A DNA stretch of 64,000 nt from Cellvibrio mixtus subsp. mixtus J3-8. GTDB taxonomy: Bacteria; Pseudomonadota; Gammaproteobacteria; Pseudomonadales; Cellvibrionaceae. Numbering within the stretch: position 1 is the stretch's first letter; every line of letters begins with the position of its first letter. Where the stretch lies: assembly GCF_000766945.1 (NCBI RefSeq), contig NZ_KN266207.1, forward strand, positions 937,898-1,001,897, written 5' to 3'. The position numbers and the translations under genes are program-made. This document shows positions 45,651-55,339 of this stretch, piece after piece. The notes below the pieces were generated by a model that searched no databases, was not told the DNA's origin, and was given only the letters and a program-made list of their open reading frames with translations.

Positions 45651-46754
45651 CTAATTAAATACTTGGGCTGGAATAAAATTCTTATCCGCATCGATCAACA
45701 TTTGCCCGATACGAGGAATATCCAGTAATGCGCACATATGCTCTTTAACCGTACCGGCAAGCCATGGGCGCTTGCTGCGATCACCACGCCATTTCACATC
45801 GTCAGGCTGTAGTGTAATTGGTTGGTTTACGGAATCTACCGCCAATCCCCAAGGCACACCATCGATAGAAACGACATATTTTGCGGTCTTCACAAAAGAT
45901 TCATCGTAACGTTCCGGCATCACAAATTTTGCAGTGTTAACCGTACGGATCTTTCCGGCGGGCGTAGGTTGCAATCCCATGAACCAATCGGCCTGGCCAA
46001 ACAATGGCGTTAGCTCATCGGTCAATGGCTGGATTTGCCCGAGGGAAATCAACGGTACCGCCAAAGTTAACCCTGATACCTGGAATAGCAATACATCAAA
46101 GCGCGATTGCGCCCATTGTGGGCGACCATTTTCAAGCCACTCCAAACCTTCCAGCTGAAAATGAGTGGGCTGTAAGTGTTCTGTGGGAGTAAGCTCAATA
46201 ACCGGCGTTATTTCAGGTGCAATAGTAATTTCGGGTGTTTCAATGATCCAATCCTGAATTTCTTCCGGATTGTTGATAAAGCTGGTTTTTGTTTCTATTC
46301 GGGTTGGCACTTCTGCTGGCGTCTCTACCAGCAATTGCGTGCGGGCAGATTGCAGCAGTTTTTCCAGCTTTAGCTTTTGTTCCTGGGTTTGAACAATTTC
46401 AGGGTCAGCAAAAGAAGACTTTGATTGGGTAACTGAGCGCGGCCTGGAAGATGTTTTTGGTGGCGCTTTTGATTGTGTTTCCGCTGAAGCACGATGAGGT
46501 AACTCGGCGCGCAGGCGCGATTTTTCCGACCTTTCTGCTGGTATTTTCTCAACCGGTTTTTCAACCGTTTTTTTCGTCGGCAATGGTACTACCCGCGCCG
46601 AACCTGCGTTGGCAGCAAGCGGTGCTATCTGGGTATCCAGTGCCTCTAATGCAAAACCCAATGGATCTTCACCACCGAGCAGATCATCCAGATAACTGTT
46701 AAGTATGTCATCGGGTGACTCAATCCCGTCGCCCGATGATTGTTTAGAGCTCAC
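45651..46754 (-). CDS. parP: ParP-like CheW-domain protein for polar chemotaxis arrays
   Basis: The 367-residue protein has a long Pro/Lys/Glu-rich N-terminus (about 1-215) and a C-terminal CheW-like domain (about 218-365: FDVLLFQVSGLTLAVPLISL, FMGLQPTPAGKIRTVNTAKFV, WGLAVDSV). This matches ParP, which links the ParA-type ATPase to CheA and keeps arrays at the pole in Vibrio and Pseudomonas; the CheW-like part is its array-integration domain. The GTG start overlaps the upstream ATPase stop by four bases (GTGA). Confidence 0.82.
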   Translation of the reverse strand: MSSKQSSGDGIESPDDILNSYLDDLLGGEDPLGFALEALDTQIAPLAANAGSARVVPLPTKKTVEKPVEKIPAERSEKSRLRAELPHRASAETQSKAPPKTSSRPRSVTQSKSSFADPEIVQTQEQKLKLEKLLQSARTQLLVETPAEVPTRIETKTSFINNPEEIQDWIIETPEITIAPEITPVIELTPTEHLQPTHFQLEGLEWLENGRPQWAQSRFDVLLFQVSGLTLAVPLISLGQIQPLTDELTPLFGQADWFMGLQPTPAGKIRTVNTAKFVMPERYDESFVKTAKYVVSIDGVPWGLAVDSVNQPITLQPDDVKWRGDRSKRPWLAGTVKEHMCALLDIPRIGQMLIDADKNFIPAQVFN

Positions 46755-47587
46755 GACACTGCACCTGCCTTGCTGGCCACCAATGGAATAGTCGATGGCA
46801 CAGTTGATTCACGTTGTTTGAATTTTTTTTCCAACCAGTGCCAGAGTGATGTGTACGCCTCAACACCCCTGCTTGTCGGATCAAACAAATGGGGCGGAAT
46901 ACCTGCCTTGCTCGCGTCGCGAAAACGGGTATCCACCGGGACATGACCCGGCCATGACTGCTCGGGATAAGTATTGCGAATAGTGCGCAAACTGGTCACG
47001 GATGCCTGGGTACGACGGTCAAACATCACTGGTACTACAGTGTAATCAAGCGCCTTTTTACGAGAGCGAGACATCATATTCAGGGTATTTACCATTCGCT
47101 CCAGGCCTTTCAATGCCAGAAACTCGGTTTGTACAGGAATAACCAGATATTGACAGGCGGCCAGGGCGTTAACCATCAAAACGCCTAAAAGCGGTGGCGT
47201 ATCAATCAGAACATAATCGTAATCATCCGCCAATAACCCGAGGGCGCGACTGAGCACCAACCCCATGCCATCCTGGCCGATTGCCTGGCGCTCCAATGTG
47301 GCCAGCGCGGTGGTGGCCGGGATAACCTCAATATTTGCAAATTGTGTAGGCAACACCAACCGTTTTACTGATTGATAACCAAGTTCCTTACGTTCCTGGA
47401 ACAGCGTATAGCTACTCAACGCCTGGTTATCGGGATCGATACCAAACCAGGTTGAGAGCGAACCGTGCGGGTCTATATCCAATAGCAGTACCCGGTAGCC
47501 AGCGCTGGCGATAAGCCCGCCCAACGCCACAGTGGTAGTCGTCTTACCTACCCCGCCTTTTTGATTTGCAATTGCCAAGATCCGCAC
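46751..47587 (-). CDS. parC: ParA-family ATPase for chemotaxis array placement (ParC-like)
   Basis: The 278-residue ATPase has the deviant Walker A AIANQKGGVGKTTTTVALGG, Walker A' LLLDIDPHGSLSTWFG and the switch DYVLIDTPPLLGVL. In this context, with parP, cheW and motCD, it is the polar localisation ATPase of the chemotaxis system, not a plasmid partition protein or topoisomerase IV ParC. The GTG at 47587 with GAGG upstream gives the Pseudomonas-like N-terminus; an ATG at 47623 would add 12 residues. Confidence 0.86.
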   Translation of the reverse strand: MRILAIANQKGGVGKTTTTVALGGLIASAGYRVLLLDIDPHGSLSTWFGIDPDNQALSSYTLFQERKELGYQSVKRLVLPTQFANIEVIPATTALATLERQAIGQDGMGLVLSRALGLLADDYDYVLIDTPPLLGVLMVNALAACQYLVIPVQTEFLALKGLERMVNTLNMMSRSRKKALDYTVVPVMFDRRTQASVTSLRTIRNTYPEQSWPGHVPVDTRFRDASKAGIPPHLFDPTSRGVEAYTSLWHWLEKKFKQRESTVPSTIPLVASKAGAVS

Positions 47588-47970
47588 GGATAGAACCTCG
47601 CTGGCGTCAAATACCAGACACATTAACCATTAATAATCGCACTGATACTGCTTAAAGCAATCTCTATGCCGGACAATAACGACTATCATTGGCACAATTA
47701 TCATCCGCAAAATCCATTATCGCCAGTCGTTGCGATACAGTTTTTTCGCCGCTTATTTTTCAGCCAGCGGATATTTAGTATTGCCCAGCGATAGACAAGT
47801 TCAAGCTCCCTAACCAAGATTAACCATCGCATTATTATTTTGGCTATAGCAGCGCGTTAACACTTCTCAATAGTAAACCGGAATATCGAAGCTAGAATTA
47901 ACTGAAGCCCTGCCTTTTCGCAGCCAAAAACCAGAATGCCGTTTATCGGCAAGCACATTCTGACGTGGTA
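47588..47970. other. Non-coding region between parC and the binding-protein gene
   Basis: This divergent gap of about 380 bp shows no convincing ORF. CAGAATG (47932-47938) and CATTCTG (47956-47962) can form a stem just upstream of the plus-strand start, with TGCCG/CGGCA as an alternative inner pairing. TTATCGGC at 47943-47950 reads GCCGATAA on the minus strand, a sigma-28 -10 element, but no matching -35 lies at the required distance. Confidence 0.4.
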
Positions 47971-48840
47971 ATGATGTCCAGAAATCGTTCTCTATCCATA
48001 AGGCCAACCCTTAATATCGGCCTTCTATTAATTATCTTTACGTCTGGCTTGCTCGCCAAAGAACTGCCATCCAATAAAGTTGCGGTTACACAGGTCACGA
48101 TCTCCTGTGAGCAAAACCTGAAACAGGATCATGATGATTACTACTACAGCAATTTATTGAAACTGGCGTTAACCAAAACAGTGCCCACCCACGGCCACTA
48201 TGAACTTAAATTTATTCCAGTAAGGCCCATAACCAACCGGTTATTGCGCGATATTGAGCGCGGCCAGGTCGACGTCACCTGGATGCCATTCACCAAAGAC
48301 CTTAAATATGATTTGAGCCCGATCAACATTCGCTTGCTCAAAAACCTGAGTGATTATCGAGTGTTTTTAATTCGCGCCCAGGATGCAGAAAAATTTTCAG
48401 CGGTGAAAAACCTTGATGATTTGCGCAAATTTAAAGGCGGTATTGGTTCGCATTGGCCAGATCGACAAGTCATGGAAGAAAATAACTTACCGCTGGTATT
48501 AAGCTTGAGTTATTTCAATTTATTCAAAATGTTGAAATCAAACCGGTTTGATTACTTTTCGCGGGGCGTCTATCAGGTGAAAGCCGAAGCGGATGCTTAC
48601 GCAGACCAGGGTATTGTGCTGGAAAAACACTTATTCTTGCGCTACGACAATCCAGTGTATTTTTATGTACACAAAGATAACCAAAAACTCGCCGAACGAA
48701 TAGCAACCGGATTAAAAATCGCCATTGAAGATGGCAGTTTCAATGAGCTTTTCAATCACATCGATAATTTACGTTGGGGAGAAAAAATATTGGAGGAAAA
48801 ACATCGCACTATTATTCAACTCACTACATCTAGCCAATGA
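47971..48840 (+). CDS. Periplasmic solute-binding-like protein (SBP family 3 type)
   Basis: The product of about 289 residues has a signal sequence (hydrophobic run NIGLLLIIFTSGLLA) and then a fold typical of amino-acid ABC-transporter binding proteins: RDIERGQVDVTWMPFTKDL, LDDLRKFKGGIGSHWPD, YFNLFKMLKSNRFDYFSRG and IAIEDGSFNELF. No permease or ATPase gene is adjacent and the usual lipobox is absent, so it may be a stand-alone sensor or periplasmic partner rather than a transporter part. It is the only plus-strand gene inside the minus-strand flagellar/chemotaxis block. Start choice among GTG 47965, ATG 47971 and ATG 47974 is uncertain. Confidence 0.75.
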   Translation: MMSRNRSLSIRPTLNIGLLLIIFTSGLLAKELPSNKVAVTQVTISCEQNLKQDHDDYYYSNLLKLALTKTVPTHGHYELKFIPVRPITNRLLRDIERGQVDVTWMPFTKDLKYDLSPINIRLLKNLSDYRVFLIRAQDAEKFSAVKNLDDLRKFKGGIGSHWPDRQVMEENNLPLVLSLSYFNLFKMLKSNRFDYFSRGVYQVKAEADAYADQGIVLEKHLFLRYDNPVYFYVHKDNQKLAERIATGLKIAIEDGSFNELFNHIDNLRWGEKILEEKHRTIIQLTTSSQ

Positions 48841-49747: not shown

Positions 49748-50494
49748 TTAATGCGGATGCAAATAGCCGTTAAGTTTCATTTCAATCGAGCGCGGGTTCT
49801 CGCCATCAGCGATGGCAATAATGCCTTCAATAATCAACTCGCGATATTGGGAGTTTTCATTGACGCACATACGCAATTTATTGGAGATAGGAATAAACAC
49901 CAGGTTGGCCAACGCCACACCGTAAATAGTCGCCACAAACGCAATTGCAATTCCCGGCCCGAGCGTCGCCGGATCAGCCAGATTATTCATCACGTGGATC
50001 AATCCCATCACCGCACCGATAATACCGATCGTTGGAGCATACCCCCCCATACTTTCGTAAAATTTAATTGCATCAAAATCGCGCTGTTCATCAACAATTA
50101 AATCGGTTTCCAAAATGCGACGAATCACTTCCGGCTCGTTACCATCGACTAATAATTGCAAACCTTTTTTCGCGAATGCATCTTTTTCACGTTCGGAAAT
50201 TGACTCCAGGCCCAACAGTCCATCTTTACGTGCTGCTGCTGCCCAGCGGGCGATATTGGAAATACCTTGTTTAAAAGGAGCATAGGGCGGTTTAAAAACC
50301 CAGCGAATAATTTTTAACGCACGGCGCAAATTGCTTTTGGACGTTTGCAACATGGCAGCCCCCAGTGTTCCCCCTACGACAATAAACGCCGCCGGGCCAT
50401 TTACCAGACTACCAACACCACCCCCTTCTAAAAAACTACCGCCAATGATTGCCGCAAATGCAACGATAACCCCGACAATACTTAGTACATCCAT
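49748..50494 (-). CDS. motC: Flagellar stator protein MotC (MotA family)
   Basis: The 248-residue MotA homologue has four membrane helices: IVGVIVAFAAIIGGSFLEGG, AAFIVVGGTLGAAML, and the pair near residues 150-205 with GGYAPTIGIIGAVMGLIHVMNNL and GIAIAFVATIYGVALANLVF. The cytoplasmic loop carries the charged residues that touch FliG. Its start overlaps the cheB stop by one base, so it is translated with cheB. Confidence 0.94.
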   Translation of the reverse strand: MDVLSIVGVIVAFAAIIGGSFLEGGGVGSLVNGPAAFIVVGGTLGAAMLQTSKSNLRRALKIIRWVFKPPYAPFKQGISNIARWAAAARKDGLLGLESISEREKDAFAKKGLQLLVDGNEPEVIRRILETDLIVDEQRDFDAIKFYESMGGYAPTIGIIGAVMGLIHVMNNLADPATLGPGIAIAFVATIYGVALANLVFIPISNKLRMCVNENSQYRELIIEGIIAIADGENPRSIEMKLNGYLHPH

Positions 50495-51633
50495 TACATT
50501 ACCTCTCGCACCAAACGTGGCCCAATATCTTTCAAACTGAGCACTTTATCTGATAACCCTGCGCGAGCAACCGCCATTGGCATCCCGTAAATTACACAAC
50601 TGGCCTCATCTTGCGACCAGAGCGATGAACCGCATTGCTTTAACAATCCTGCCCCCTTGCAACCATCTGATCCCATACCCGTGAGCACTACGCCCAATAC
50701 TTTATCGGCATAGGTATTTGCAGCGGAACCAAAGGTAATATCCAGCGAAGGTTTGTAAGTAACTCGATCATCATCCGGCAACACGCGCACTGAACCACCG
50801 TTGCGTTTATCGAGCATTAATTGTTTCCCGCCGGGCGCAAGTAACGCCAAACCAGGTTGCAATTGATCGCCATCTGCAGCCTCGCGCACCTGTATTTTGC
50901 ATTGCTTGTTCAAACGCTCAGCAAATGCTTTCGTGAAATTTTCCGGCATATGTTGCACCAACACGATGGGCAACGGAAAATTGGCTGGCAATGCCACTAA
51001 TACTTCGGCAAGCGCAACCGGCCCACCGGTGGAAGCACCAATGACCAAAATTTTAGGTTTGTTTTTTAAACGATAATTATCAGATGCTGCCGATTTATTA
51101 TCGTCCGGGGAAACAGCCGTTTTTGTCGATGCTGGCGGTGCCACCGGAACACTCGTTCGCAAATGGCTGGTTGTTGGGGTAATCGCCGGTTTGGTGTCAA
51201 CAGCGGGCGCTGGTGATATTGGAGACAAACGCGCAGATACACCGGCCAATGTAATTAAACGCTCGTGTAATTTTTTCTTAAGCACTTCGGAGCTGCGGGA
51301 AACTTCGGCAAAATCTTTGGGGATAAAATCCAGTGCGCCCGCTGCGAGGGCATCCAGCGTAATTTTTGCGCCTTCATAAGTGAGCGACGAAAACATCAGG
51401 ATCGGGACTTTGCGATTGGCCATGATATGTTTGATCGCAGTGACACCATCCATCACCGGCATTTCAAAATCCATGGTGATGATATCCGGCTTCAGTTCCG
51501 CCGCTTTTTCGATGGCTTCGCGACCATTGCTGGCAATACCGATAACTTTTAAATCCGGGTGCTCATTAATAATATCTTTCAAGCGATGTTGAAAGAAATT
51601 GGAATCATCGACCACTAATACCCGGACAGGCAT
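50494..51633 (-). CDS. cheB: Chemotaxis response regulator protein-glutamate methylesterase CheB
   Basis: The 379-residue protein has a receiver (Asp9-Asp10, phospho-acceptor Asp55 in IITMDFEMPVMDG), a long linker rich in Ala, Pro and Thr (about 135-190), and a C-terminal methylesterase domain. The catalytic triad regions are VIGASTGGPVALAE (Ser), VQHMPENF (His) and GMGSDG (Asp). It removes methyl groups from receptors for adaptation. GGAG lies eight bases before the ATG. A terminator-like stem stands between cheA and cheB. Confidence 0.95.
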   Translation of the reverse strand: MPVRVLVVDDSNFFQHRLKDIINEHPDLKVIGIASNGREAIEKAAELKPDIITMDFEMPVMDGVTAIKHIMANRKVPILMFSSLTYEGAKITLDALAAGALDFIPKDFAEVSRSSEVLKKKLHERLITLAGVSARLSPISPAPAVDTKPAITPTTSHLRTSVPVAPPASTKTAVSPDDNKSAASDNYRLKNKPKILVIGASTGGPVALAEVLVALPANFPLPIVLVQHMPENFTKAFAERLNKQCKIQVREAADGDQLQPGLALLAPGGKQLMLDKRNGGSVRVLPDDDRVTYKPSLDITFGSAANTYADKVLGVVLTGMGSDGCKGAGLLKQCGSSLWSQDEASCVIYGMPMAVARAGLSDKVLSLKDIGPRLVREVM

Positions 51634-51714: not shown

Positions 51715-54024
51715 TTAATTGTGTCCCCAACTCGTCGATCCTTTTGCGTAGCGACGTAATAGGCTGGGGATATCCAAAATCAATGCGATGGTACCGTCAC
51801 CGGTAATGGTTGCACCGGCCATGCCCGGTGTTCCCTGCAACATTTTCCCAAGCGGTTTTATTACCACTTCTTCCTGGCCAATTAATTGATCTACCACAAA
51901 CCCGACACGACGGGTTCCTACAGTAACAATAACAACATGGGCATTATCCGGGCGATCACCATACGCGCCTTTCACTAACCAGTCCTTCATATAAAACAAT
52001 GGAATGGCTTGATCGCGAATCGCGACACAATCCTGTCCATCTACGATATGACTTTTGGTTAGATCCATGTGGAAAATTTCATTCACACTGACTAACGGGA
52101 ACGCAAATGTTTGCTGCCCCAACATAAACATCAGTGTGGGCATGATCGCTAACGTCAACGGCACTTTAATAATAAAACGAGTGCCTTTGCCCAATTCAGA
52201 TTTAATTTCCACTGTGCCATTTAGCTGGGTGATTTTGGTTTTCACCACATCCATTCCCACACCGCGACCCGACACATCGGAAATTTCTTTTTTGGTTGAA
52301 AAACCCGGGGCAAAAATTAAATTATAGGCTTCTGTATCGGATAAACGATTGGCAGTGTCCTCATCAAACATGCCTTTTTCTACAGCAATACGACGCAATT
52401 TTGCCGGGTCCATCCCCGCACCGTCATCACTAATAGATAATAAAATATGATCGCCTTCCTGCTCAGCGGCAAGCACTACCTGGCCAGTACGTGATTTGCC
52501 ATTTGCTTCACGCACTTCAGGAAACTCAATGCCGTGATCAACGGAATTACGTACTAGATGCACTAATGGATCAGCAAGCGCTTCAACTAGATTTTTATCC
52601 AGATCAGTTTCTTCGCCCACTAATTCCAGATTGATTTCTTTGCGCAAGCTACGCGCCAAATCGCGCACAACGCGCGGGAACCGACCGAATACTTTTTTGA
52701 TCGGTTGCATCCGCGTTTTCATTACCGACGTTTGCAAATCTGCTGTCACCACATCCAGATTCGCAACCGCTTTTACCAACGCTTCATTCGTTGAACTGTT
52801 GCCCAAACGTACCAAACGGTTACGCACCAATACCAATTCACCCACCATATTCATGATGTCGTCAAGGCGCTGGGTATCAACACGCACCGTGGTTTCCACT
52901 TGCGGCGCGTCTTTATCGGCCGCTGGTGCTGGAGCAGCGGCTGCAACAGGAGCAGGTTTTGCCGGCTCAGGCTTTTTAACCGGGGCAACTGCAGGCTTTA
53001 TTTCAGCGGCTGCCGGTTTGGGGGCGGGTTTTGCAGCAGGTGCAGGAGCGACTACCGGCGCAGAAGCACCGGTGGTGCCCGGCCCTTTACCTTTACCATG
53101 CAATTGATCGAGCAACGCATCAAACTCATCATCGGTAATTAAATCACCGCCCGTTGAAACTGGAACCGGTGGCGCAACAGCAGCAGGAGCCGCCGCAGGT
53201 ACTACTGACGCCGATGCGCCAGCAGGCCCTTTACCTTTGCCATGCAATTGATCTAATAACGCTTCAAATTCGTCTTCAGAAATTTCATCGGATGTTGAAC
53301 TCGTTGTTACCGGTGCTGCAGCTACCGGAGCCGCCGCTGGTGTGGATGCAACAACATCACCCGGGCCTTTACCTTTACCGTGTAATTGATCCAGTAACGC
53401 TTCAAATTCATCTTCAGAAATTTCATCGCTCGTTGATGATGCAGCAGACACAGCAGCTGCCGGAGCGGTTGGGGTTGGTGGCTTACCGGCAATGGCATCC
53501 AACAATTGTTCAAATTCAGCATCCGTAATATCGCCGCCAACTGTTGTTGTATTTGTTACCGGTTCTATTACTTCTGTTTCAGGCGCAGGAGCAACTTCAA
53601 TTTCTGCAGGAGCAACAGACGACTCTTGTAAGTCTTCACAAGAAACCAATCGCTCCAACGCATGGATTAATGAAGGATCAACTGGCGGCAATTCTTCGCG
53701 CTGGGAAACCAATTCGAATTGTTGGTTCACCATATCCAATGCTTGCAACACCACGTCCATTAGTTCAGACGTAACAGTGCGTTTGCCATTGCGCAAAATA
53801 TCAAACAGGTTCTCAGTGACGTGGCAACACTCCACCATGGGAGTTAATGATAAAAATCCGGCACCACCTTTTACGGTGTGAAAACCACGAAAAATAGCAT
53901 TCAATAAATCTTTGTCTTCAGGACGCTGCTCCAAATCCACTAATTGCTGGCTGAGGCGTTCGAGGATTTCCCCCGCCTCTACCAGGAAATCCTGGAGAAT
54001 GTCTTCGTCATCACCAAAACTCAT
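51715..54024 (-). CDS. cheA: Chemotaxis histidine kinase CheA, P2 domain not recognised
   Basis: The 769-residue kinase starts with a P1/Hpt domain (phospho-acceptor His49 in FRGFHTVKGGAGF). It ends with the P3 dimerisation domain (from about 377: TTVRVDTQRLDDIMNMVGELV), a P4 HATPase (LVRNSVDHGIE, DDGAGMD, GFSTKKEISDVSGRGVGMDVV) and a P5 CheW-like domain. Between P1 and P3, residues 130-375 are a Pro/Ala-rich linker instead of the globular P2 that binds CheY and CheB. The linker holds four copies of a short acidic-hydrophobic motif (164-182, 199-221, 245-267, 293-315). The start has GAGGA seven bases upstream. It lies between cheZ and cheB. Confidence 0.95.
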   Translation of the reverse strand: MSFGDDEDILQDFLVEAGEILERLSQQLVDLEQRPEDKDLLNAIFRGFHTVKGGAGFLSLTPMVECCHVTENLFDILRNGKRTVTSELMDVVLQALDMVNQQFELVSQREELPPVDPSLIHALERLVSCEDLQESSVAPAEIEVAPAPETEVIEPVTNTTTVGGDITDAEFEQLLDAIAGKPPTPTAPAAAVSAASSTSDEISEDEFEALLDQLHGKGKGPGDVVASTPAAAPVAAAPVTTSSTSDEISEDEFEALLDQLHGKGKGPAGASASVVPAAAPAAVAPPVPVSTGGDLITDDEFDALLDQLHGKGKGPGTTGASAPVVAPAPAAKPAPKPAAAEIKPAVAPVKKPEPAKPAPVAAAAPAPAADKDAPQVETTVRVDTQRLDDIMNMVGELVLVRNRLVRLGNSSTNEALVKAVANLDVVTADLQTSVMKTRMQPIKKVFGRFPRVVRDLARSLRKEINLELVGEETDLDKNLVEALADPLVHLVRNSVDHGIEFPEVREANGKSRTGQVVLAAEQEGDHILLSISDDGAGMDPAKLRRIAVEKGMFDEDTANRLSDTEAYNLIFAPGFSTKKEISDVSGRGVGMDVVKTKITQLNGTVEIKSELGKGTRFIIKVPLTLAIMPTLMFMLGQQTFAFPLVSVNEIFHMDLTKSHIVDGQDCVAIRDQAIPLFYMKDWLVKGAYGDRPDNAHVVIVTVGTRRVGFVVDQLIGQEEVVIKPLGKMLQGTPGMAGATITGDGTIALILDIPSLLRRYAKGSTSWGHN
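53080..53535 (-). repeat. Four coding repeats in the cheA linker
   Basis: Copies encode ITDAEFEQLLDAIAGKP (53535 downward), ISEDEFEALLDQLHGKGKGP (twice: 53430-53362 and 53292-53224) and ITDDEFDALLDQLHGKGKGP (53148-53080). The two middle copies are identical in protein but differ by silent changes in DNA, so selection acts on the peptide. The spacers are Ala/Pro/Thr-rich. Confidence 0.9.
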
Positions 54025-54049: not shown

Positions 54050-54853
54050 CTAAAAGCCAAGGCTCGACAAGAGATCGTCAACTTCGTCTTGCCCTGCAAC
54101 TACATCAGGCCGGTCTTTATTAATTTGCGGCCCTTCGGCTTCGGTTTTTCGCTTGTGCATAATTTCCATGTCGTGAGCGATAGTTTCACGATCATCTGCA
54201 AGGCCAGTAATTTCTTCTACCTGACCAGCAATACGCACCAGGCTTACCAAATCCTTTTCCACTTCATTAATTAAACCGATAACACGCTTTAATACTTGCC
54301 CGGTTAAATCCTGAAAGCCTTGTTCCAAAACAATATCTTGCAAATTTTTATTTAATTGCTCAGTGCCTGTCACCATTTGCCCTAAAAAAACATCCATCCG
54401 GTCATAGAGCAAACGAAATTCATCCAGGCTCATTTCACGGCGCTTAAGCCGCGCCCATTCATCGCGCAAACTGGTTGCTTCTTGCCCGAGGTTCATTGCA
54501 ATAGGCGCAGCTTCATCAACCATATCCATGGTTTTTTCCGCCGCTTTTTGCGTAAGTTCAATCACGTAATTCAAACGATTGGAGGCATCGTGAATATCCG
54601 AGTTTTGAATTTTTGGCGGTTCTTTGGAGAGGTCGGCATCGACATTGAAATTGACGATGGCATCGTGCAGCCCACGCGTTAATCGCCCTACGGATTGGAA
54701 AATATGGCGATCACGGGATTGGGTGATGGTGTGTATCAATACGGATGCATCTTCGAACTGGTTGCTTTGCAACTTTTCAGTGAGCAGCTTGGCGCACTCT
54801 TTCAATTCAACGACGAATTCATTATTGACGGATGTTTGGATGTCAGATGCCAT
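54050..54853 (-). CDS. cheZ: Chemotaxis protein phosphatase CheZ
   Basis: CheZ speeds dephosphorylation of CheY-P. The 267-residue, almost all-helical protein shows the catalytic Gln region LQDIVLEQGFQDLTGQVLKRV and the C-terminal CheY-binding tail DEVDDLLSSLGF, joined by a charged flexible segment. AAAGG precedes the ATG. It stands between cheY and cheA in the usual polar-flagellate order. Confidence 0.94.
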   Translation of the reverse strand: MASDIQTSVNNEFVVELKECAKLLTEKLQSNQFEDASVLIHTITQSRDRHIFQSVGRLTRGLHDAIVNFNVDADLSKEPPKIQNSDIHDASNRLNYVIELTQKAAEKTMDMVDEAAPIAMNLGQEATSLRDEWARLKRREMSLDEFRLLYDRMDVFLGQMVTGTEQLNKNLQDIVLEQGFQDLTGQVLKRVIGLINEVEKDLVSLVRIAGQVEEITGLADDRETIAHDMEIMHKRKTEAEGPQINKDRPDVVAGQDEVDDLLSSLGF

Positions 54854-54886: not shown

Positions 54887-55258
54887 TTAACCTACTCGAT
54901 CAAAAATTTTCTCGATTTTTTCTTTCAGGGCTTGTGCCGTAAATGGTTTAACAACATAACCATTCACACCGGCCTGGGCCGCTTCAATAATCTGGTCGCG
55001 CTTGGCTTCGGCAGTTACCATCAAGACCGGCAAGGTGCGCAATTTTTCATCGGCACGAACTGCTTTTAATAAATCGATACCGGTCATGCCAGGCATATTC
55101 CAGTCGGTCACTAAAAACTGGAAATCACCACTTTTCAGCATTGGCAATGCGGTGACACCATCATCTGCTTCGTGGGTATTGGAAAAACCCAGGTCGCGCA
55201 GCAAATTTTTTATGATCCGTCGCATTGTTGAAAAGTCGTCAACAATCAGGATTTTCAT
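54887..55258 (-). CDS. cheY: Chemotaxis response regulator CheY
   Basis: The 123-residue single receiver has Asp7-Asp8, phospho-acceptor Asp52 in [11 protein letters not shown], and the Thr and Lys sites in MVTAEAK and YVVKPF. It binds FliM in the motor switch. The ATG at 55258 gives the Pseudomonas-like start [18 protein letters not shown] four codons upstream (55270) has GGAGG at ideal spacing and may be the true start. A candidate sigma-28 promoter lies about 80 bases upstream. Confidence 0.95.
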
Positions 55259-55339
55259 ATTCTTATCCAACGTAACCTCCACTAACCCCGACGGGATTTT
55301 CATTTACTCATAGTCTAGTAGGAGTTAAAGCATCGGCCA

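Follow-up and report, generated by a model that had tools for sequence, protein, structure and literature searches.

The P2 domain of CheA (PF07194, PF09078) is a globular domain, with models of 81 and 63 positions, which lies between the P1 and P3 domains and docks CheY near P1. More than half of CheAs are reported to lack it, with AlphaFold giving an unstructured region between the Hpt and dimerization domains, and the report treats P2 as dispensable, its main text using none of the words "motif", "FliM" or "disordered" (PMC10782961; Berry et al., 2023); by that account the absence of P2 is ordinary and known. CheY-binding peptides are known from the N-terminus of FliM and from the C-terminus of CheZ, and in Vibrio a region of CheA between P2 and P3, the localization and inheritance domain (LID), is described as binding ParP and as occurring only together with ParC and ParP (PMC5706961; PMC7534058). 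Here we analyze the cheA gene of Cellvibrio mixtus subsp. mixtus J3-8 within a stretch of 64,000 nucleotides (nt) of contig NZ_KN266207.1 (hereafter the window), the product of which carries four short FliM/CheZ-like repeats where P2 would be expected. Judging from sequence comparison, we consider it probable, at roughly 0.74, that CheY is docked not by a P2 domain but by this array, the members of which are short linear motifs of the FliM/CheZ type. What speaks for this is the absence of P2, the motif array with its predicted helices, its near-universality among related CheAs, its likeness to FliM and CheZ, and its persistence in genomes with neither a ParC orthologue nor a recognizable ParP. 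P2-less CheAs, the FliM and CheZ peptides and the LID are already known, and a FliM-type docking-motif array in CheA was not found described in the open-licence literature searched, a scope that excludes most subscription papers and bioRxiv preprints. An earlier interpretation made from the letters of this DNA alone (the sequence-only reading) had regarded the function of such an arrangement as poorly described.

The cheA gene and its domains are located in the window as follows.

51715..54024, minus strand: cheA, 769 amino acids (aa), with P1, the motif linker, P3, P4 and P5; P2 not detected
53722..54003, minus strand: P1 (Hpt), aa 8-101 (Pfam PF01627, E 8e-18)
52894..53664, minus strand: linker rich in Ala and Pro, aa 121-377 (A 21%, P 13%)
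52714..52893, minus strand: P3 dimerization domain (H-kinase_dim), aa 378-437 (PF02895, E 2.7e-15)
52153..52575, minus strand: P4 ATPase domain (HATPase_c), aa 484-624 (PF02518, E 6.3e-20)
51751..52134, minus strand: P5 CheW-like domain, aa 631-758 (PF01584, E 1.1e-26)

All four domains by which a CheA histidine kinase is recognized (P1, P3, P4 and P5) are thus present by Pfam, and the five-domain form with P2 between P1 and P3 is not seen either by Pfam or in the AlphaFold model. The sequence-only reading had likewise seen no globular P2 and had proposed a search of the linker with P2 models, and the absence holds: neither PF07194 nor PF09078 matched the whole protein at E up to 1 or, at E up to 10, the linker by itself, and the linker found no relative among PDB sequences at E up to 1. 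Of the 192 genomes in which CheA was matched, 80 were covered by searches with the two models; PF07194 gave 0/80 and PF09078 0/80, with positive controls detected for the former in B. subtilis, T. maritima, H. volcanii and M. acetivorans and for the latter in E. coli. These models are insensitive, given that a P2-like domain in another CheA of the same genome (L003) was picked up only at Pfam E 0.059, and more weight is therefore placed on the AlphaFold model and on linker composition. In the monomer model (58-row alignment, mean predicted local distance difference test score [pLDDT] 77.5, predicted template modeling score 0.58), of which the secondary structure and pLDDT were used, aa 108-438 are free of strands and no P2 fold is seen. 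The most hydrophobic 60-residue window of the linker reaches 25% in this CheA, compared to 42% in L003 and 38% in a P2-like paralogue from another genome (L186, discussed below). Apart from L186, only one of 169 related CheAs reached a 35% hydrophobic window, namely L102, which has eight motif copies.

The linker contains four motif copies.

53476..53529, minus strand: copy 1, ITDAEFEQLLDAIAGKPP, aa 166-183; subtype without the LHGKGK tail; AlphaFold helix 168-178
53368..53421, minus strand: copy 2, ISEDEFEALLDQLHGKGK, aa 202-219; AlphaFold helix 204-215
53230..53283, minus strand: copy 3, ISEDEFEALLDQLHGKGK, identical in protein to copy 2, aa 248-265; AlphaFold helix 250-260
53086..53139, minus strand: copy 4, ITDDEFDALLDQLHGKGK, aa 296-313; AlphaFold helix 298-309

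The pattern (S/T)xDEFExLLDxLxG, which had been assigned to all four, needs adjusting at two of them: the four copies are real; copy 1 (TDAEFEQLLDAIAG) has A in place of D, I in place of L and no LHGKGK tail, and copy 4 reads EFD instead of EFE. Copies 2 and 3 match exactly over 24 aa (26 if the two upstream residues are included), and their DNA over these 24 aa differs in 9 codons and at 11 of 72 nt, every change being silent, as had been noted in general terms from the sequence alone. The core DNA pattern has three matches genome-wide, all of them inside cheA, with copy 1 falling outside the pattern. Past aa 135 the only helices that AlphaFold places in the linker are four, one per motif, with ten-residue block means of about 65-85 pLDDT, while the stretches between them are mostly below 50. 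This result supports the reading as a motif array, yet has no bearing on CheY binding itself.

The same helices bear on another explanation, that the repeats act within CheA (on P1, P4 or P5) or form SHOCT-like oligomerization helices, which we regard as very improbable. Pfam does report SHOCT (PF09851) on the linker at 6.4e-9 over four stretches; the match is to half of the profile, the best stretch covering positions 14-27 of 28, and SHOCT was rejected as a domain assignment. The motif helices stand separate, flanked by coil mostly under pLDDT 50 (monomer model, secondary structure only), and neither version of this explanation predicts the likeness to FliM and CheZ described below.

In order to establish how widespread the array is, CheA was searched for in 115 genomes of the order and 369 of the class, of which 53 (at 1e-120) and 142 (at 1e-110), respectively, gave a match. 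The set comprised 189 distinct CheA open reading frames (ORFs), 169 of them intact (P1 present, full length). The motif reached threshold in 168 of these 169, with one to eight copies: seven CheAs had one copy, 40 had two, 80 had three, 40 had four and one had eight. The motif profile was built from the same CheAs (own left out); as an outside check, a profile of FliM peptides picked the linker motif as the best 9-mer in 166 of 174 CheAs. The single exception, L186 (genome G385), is a neighboring P2-like paralogue taken by mistake, and the intended orthologue, a 752-aa ORF, has two copies. That locus holds two CheA-like genes, one with motifs and the other with a P2-like block, and the eight-copy CheA, L102 (G146), exceeds 1000 aa.

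The consensus of 464 copies is I-[TS]-[DE]-[DE]-E-F-[ED]-A-L-L-D-[QE]-L-H-G-K-G-K, with E at 98%, the two L at 93 and 98%, D at 92%, L at 78%, H at 70% and G at 78%, percentages that are conditional on a search pattern which fixed F and limited five other core positions. Two subtypes recur in the alignment, the first copy commonly being DITDxEFExLLDALx without LHG and later copies carrying LHGKGK. Between aa 124 and 376 of the 58-row alignment, the positions conserved at 90% or more are the motif residues and two single prolines, P337 and P344. That the linker is a mere spacer, P2 being dispensable and the repeats being leftovers of tandem duplication, scarcely deserves credence in view of this conservation and of the silent-only differences between copies 2 and 3, even with linker length and copy number varying and with more than half of CheAs lacking P2 and having a region called unstructured (PMC10782961). 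Both observations argue for selection on the peptide, a claim of the sequence-only reading that stands.

It had also been suggested that the arrangement is a lineage trait common to Pseudomonas; this is supported by a P. aeruginosa CheA with four copies, and the trait extends far wider, as the 168 of 169 intact CheAs show. A search of named loci, for which six seeds were used (one being the motif itself), found the motif in all 80 of the best 80 of 495, 79 with three copies and one with four; these are from Alteromonadaceae, Pseudoalteromonas, Rheinheimera and related or unclassified gammaproteobacteria. An Aeromonas caviae CheA has three copies and a CheA from a Photobacterium toruni plasmid has one good and one degenerate copy; the P. 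aeruginosa, A. caviae and P. toruni records are all labeled plasmids. The P. toruni plasmid (NZ_CP101697, L337 7080-11652) has an annotated cheY-cheZ-cheA-cheW cluster and a further chemotaxis protein, perhaps CheV; cheB, parC and parP are not annotated alongside, and its CheA keeps the motif.

Upstream of cheA lies the gene for CheZ, whose tail was compared with the repeats.

54050..54853, minus strand: cheZ (Pfam)
54053..54094, minus strand: C-terminal tail of CheZ, GQDEVDDLLSSLGF, which aligns with that of CheZ in PDB 1kmi; CheY-binding peptides of this type are known

The FliM N-terminus of the same genome is MQDLLSQDEIDALLHGVDDGD, and the own-genome cores are SQDEIDALL in FliM, GQDEVDDLL in CheZ and SEDEFEALL in CheA. 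The FliM peptide shares the core [ST][QED][DE]E[IVF][DE]xLL with the CheA repeats, mostly followed by HG; it is present in one copy at the N-terminus of a motor protein and lacks LDxLHGKGK, whereas CheA has several copies in the linker of a kinase. The CheZ tail (PDB 1kmi, the CheY-CheZ complex) has the same core (QDEVDDLLSSLGF) in one copy at the C-terminus, ending LGF, of a phosphatase. One difference is constant: where the CheA motif has F, FliM has I or V, and CheZ mostly has V.

The resemblance to the FliM peptide and to the CheZ tail of this genome, first proposed by eye in the sequence-only reading, is borne out by profile searches in both directions. With a 9-mer profile made from CheA repeats alone (this genome's own CheA left out), all 29 distinct FliMs, from a list of 30 in which one genome appears twice, had their highest-scoring 9-mer of the entire ORF in the N-terminal peptide that binds CheY, at 12.6-18.5. 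As background, in ORFs annotated as neither CheA nor CheZ (1,208,860 positions), 16 scores reached 15, and 11 of the top background matches resemble unannotated pieces of CheA. On 159 CheZs (4 of 163 having no clear tail were left out), the tail was the best 9-mer in 101, 100 of these at the same offset, compared to a mean of 22.9 for column-shuffled profiles and 0 for the reversed profile. In the reverse direction, with FliM matches and those of each profile's own family removed ahead of ranking, a profile of 30 FliM peptides (5 distinct) was run over 1,382,998 ORF positions, and its top 300 comprised 169 CheA, 5 motif-bearing pieces, 117 CheZ, 2 ParP and 7 other; ORFs ran from stop to stop, and the five pieces were labeled CheA fragments by motif and not by homology. 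A CheZ-tail profile found the linker motif as the best 9-mer in 129 of 174 CheAs. At profile level the CheA, FliM and CheZ peptides are alike, and by the profiles and the AlphaFold model together the repeats have the makings of a FliM/CheZ-type short linear motif: acidic-E-[IVF]-[DE]-x-L-L, helix-forming and set in a flexible segment.

Several observations weigh against docking by the array. Column-shuffled profiles reached the CheZ count of 101 in 15 of 200 cases, 58 of the 159 CheZs had their best 9-mer away from the tail, and the CheZ-tail profile is less specific, its top 300 comprising 170 CheA, 104 other and 14 CheB. For the reverse searches, in which shuffles were judged by a looser rule of matching, the best of them attained 50 and 41 of 58 CheAs and the averages were 9.8 and 9.6; that some shuffled profiles score so high follows from acidic and Leu columns being interchangeable. 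The shuffle controls cover the CheZ and the reverse searches and not the 29/29 FliM result, and the loci searched were centered on che operons, so that CheA and CheZ were favored. The replacement of I/V by F and the added LDxLHGKGK mean that partner or binding mode may differ. Lastly, phosphotransfer in E. coli does not require P2 (PMC10782961, citing its ref. 53), so that, on that citation, docking may perhaps be unnecessary altogether.

The candidate ligand is encoded just beyond cheZ, and cheB lies on the other side of cheA.

54887..55303, minus strand: cheY, proposed ligand of the CheA repeats
50494..51633, minus strand: cheB (Pfam); docking to the repeats without support

In a MAFFT alignment of 160 of the 162 CheYs from these loci (two that matched weakly were left out), numbered as in E. 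coli, I95, Y106, K109, P110 and K119 are present in 160/160, with K91 in 152, R92 in 140 (K in 20), Q94 in 156, V103 in 158 and K122 in 149. Such a conserved basic surface fits an acidic peptide, as far as sequences can tell. We would expect CheY from the neighboring gene to be caught by the linker repeats via its alpha4-beta5-alpha5 surface, and the repeats, borne on the same flexible arm as P1, to concentrate it near the phosphorylated histidine of that domain. With several copies on each chain, eight in a dimer here, the capture site would be multivalent, the multivalency raising capture without slow release, and CheY would be phosphorylated and then released to FliM or CheZ; this release of CheY-P would be required, since the surface by which it is held is the one that FliM and CheZ use. 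The profile searches, the near-invariant basic CheY surface and the persistence of the motif without a ParC orthologue or recognizable ParP speak for CheY binding, which we infer, as we do its affinity, the order of events, the preference between CheY and CheY-P and the effect on phosphotransfer. The proposal that the repeats dock CheY remains probable, and its companion, that they dock CheB, found no support. A natural fusion of the motif to a receiver domain was not found among the ORFs examined.

The FliM and CheZ peptides prefer CheY-P. From this one could argue that the repeats, resembling them, bind CheY-P and compete for it with FliM and CheZ as a sink or buffer, shaping the output without feeding the kinase. 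We consider such a sink quite unlikely: the repeats, with F in place of I/V and an extra LDxLHGKGK tail, may have a different preference, and CheZ is already present for removal of CheY-P.

The order of genes in the cluster is cheY, cheZ, cheA, cheB, motC, motD, an opposite-strand ORF, parC, parP and cheW, where motC and motD are named by position and parC and parP by relatives. This order and the CheY residues R92, Q94 and V103, these two features only, suggest that the kinase may belong to F6, a chemosensory class in the phylogenetic scheme of Wuichet and Zhulin. The CheY used with a P2-bearing CheA of class F7 is reported to differ from CheY of F6 by R92K, Q94N and V103A, residues described there as facing P2 (PMC7184735; Ortega et al., 2020), and most CheYs of the loci analyzed here belong to the R/Q/V type. 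Should the F6 kinase lack P2, these three substitutions may be the change needed for docking to move from a peptide to a domain.

Two further genes of the cluster raise the question of whether the repeats serve another partner.

46751..47623, minus strand: parC orthologue (polar anchor of chemotaxis arrays), 56% identity over 252 aa to the P. aeruginosa ParA-family protein in the same place
45651..46754, minus strand: parP orthologue (rival partner of the linker), with a CheW-like domain, 57% over 145 aa to a P. aeruginosa protein

The repeats might be a LID, binding the AIF domain of ParP and tying the chemotaxis array to the polar anchor ParC, with CheY uninvolved. The published CheA-LID lies in the same linker region and binds ParP (PMC5706961; PMC7534058), and parC and parP stand in the same cluster as cheA here as in Vibrio. 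Furthermore, since the residues conserved at 90% or more at aa 124-376 are the motif plus P337 and P344, there are few other places in the linker for a LID. The N-terminus of ParP was considered as a further motif copy and rejected, as by eye it has a pattern of its own, QxALxxYLDxLL. The P. aeruginosa relatives of ParC and ParP (the 56% ParA-family gene and the 57% CheW-domain gene) are found at L336 13157-14927 in NZ_CP131792, which is at odds with a statement in PMC12410967 that P. aeruginosa lacks related genes.

A LID reported only alongside ParC and ParP should be absent where they are missing, and ParC was therefore sought in 30 genomes, 8 with ParC seen beside cheA and 22 where the stretch around cheA had shown none (17) or a weak or partial match (5). 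An orthologue was present in 20 of the 30 (44-64% identity, own 100%), and the other 10 had only relatives at 30-36%. A ParP profile found nothing in two of these ten (G304, G408) and only CheW-level matches, up to 36.8 bits, in the others. In six control genomes with a ParC orthologue the same profile gave 173-230 bits in four, 45 bits in G474 and nothing in G125, the last two indicating that it can miss a divergent ParP. Completeness of the ten genomes (G123, G115, G304, G267, G408, G284, G135, G282, G138 and G009) is 91-100%, and some of them consist of hundreds of contigs; a ParP or ParC may therefore be divergent or unassembled. All ten keep the motif, although in G284 CheA is apparently split over two frames and G138 has one weak copy; unlike the LID as published, the CheA motif therefore also occurs where neither partner was found, a comparison made by published description.

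On a quick tree of 105 CheA cores, in which 46 of 102 inner branches are open, eight of the ten ParC-less rows were entered (all but L190 and L179, the latter with a CheA apparently split over two frames), and absence of ParC requires at least 6 changes (shuffled mean 7.8). Copy number is not clearly lower without ParC (mean 2.38, n=8, compared to 2.89, n=97; Mann-Whitney p 0.19), and in two families, f48 and f200, the motif is kept throughout while ParC varies between related genomes. A role in ParP binding only does not predict likeness to the FliM and CheZ peptides. The retention of the motif without a ParC orthologue or recognizable ParP makes it unlikely that ParP binding is why the motif is maintained, and the LID as the whole explanation is unlikely. 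With little else in the linker being conserved, ParP binding may be a second role of the motif.

If CheY docking by the array is right, many P2-less CheAs have a docking site after all, in the form of short linear motifs invisible to domain models, and the partner-exchange logic would be that of one CheY surface and three competing peptides. It would also give a reason for the changes of CheY at the P2 face when F7 took over the flagellum (as reported in PMC7184735). CheY capture by P2-less kinases becomes directly testable with synthetic peptides, and the regularity of the motif is such that a simple pattern would suffice for annotation. A broader scheme is offered only tentatively: in much of the gammaproteobacteria, including P. 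aeruginosa, the main flagellar CheA might dock CheY via a multivalent brush of motor-mimic peptides with no folded domain. The kinase, the phosphatase and the motor would then use variants of a single motif to compete for one surface of CheY, and the two motif subtypes may split the work, for example into CheY capture and ParP docking, which would couple array position to phosphotransfer.

Some minor observations remain. In L160 and L176 (G304 and G408, family f99) the CheA motif is a variant, ITDDEFEALLNQRD or ITDEEFExLLQMRE, without the LHG tail, and the FliM of these two genomes has LLKG or LLRG instead of LLHG, a hint at CheA-FliM co-variation from one family; counter to this, G123 has LLTG in FliM yet its CheA keeps LHG/LYG. 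The opposite-strand ORF of the che cluster (47965-48840, plus strand), between the motCD-like genes and parC, looks by eye like a solute-binding protein. Elsewhere in the C. mixtus genome, a second CheA (L001 508-2580, minus strand, contig C6) has no Pfam P2 and five [YF]GFF linker repeats, which form a different motif array, and a third (L003 490-2688, plus strand, contig C8) has the P2-like region mentioned above. Of the four CheA homologues in this genome, those other than L004 thus have three different linkers.

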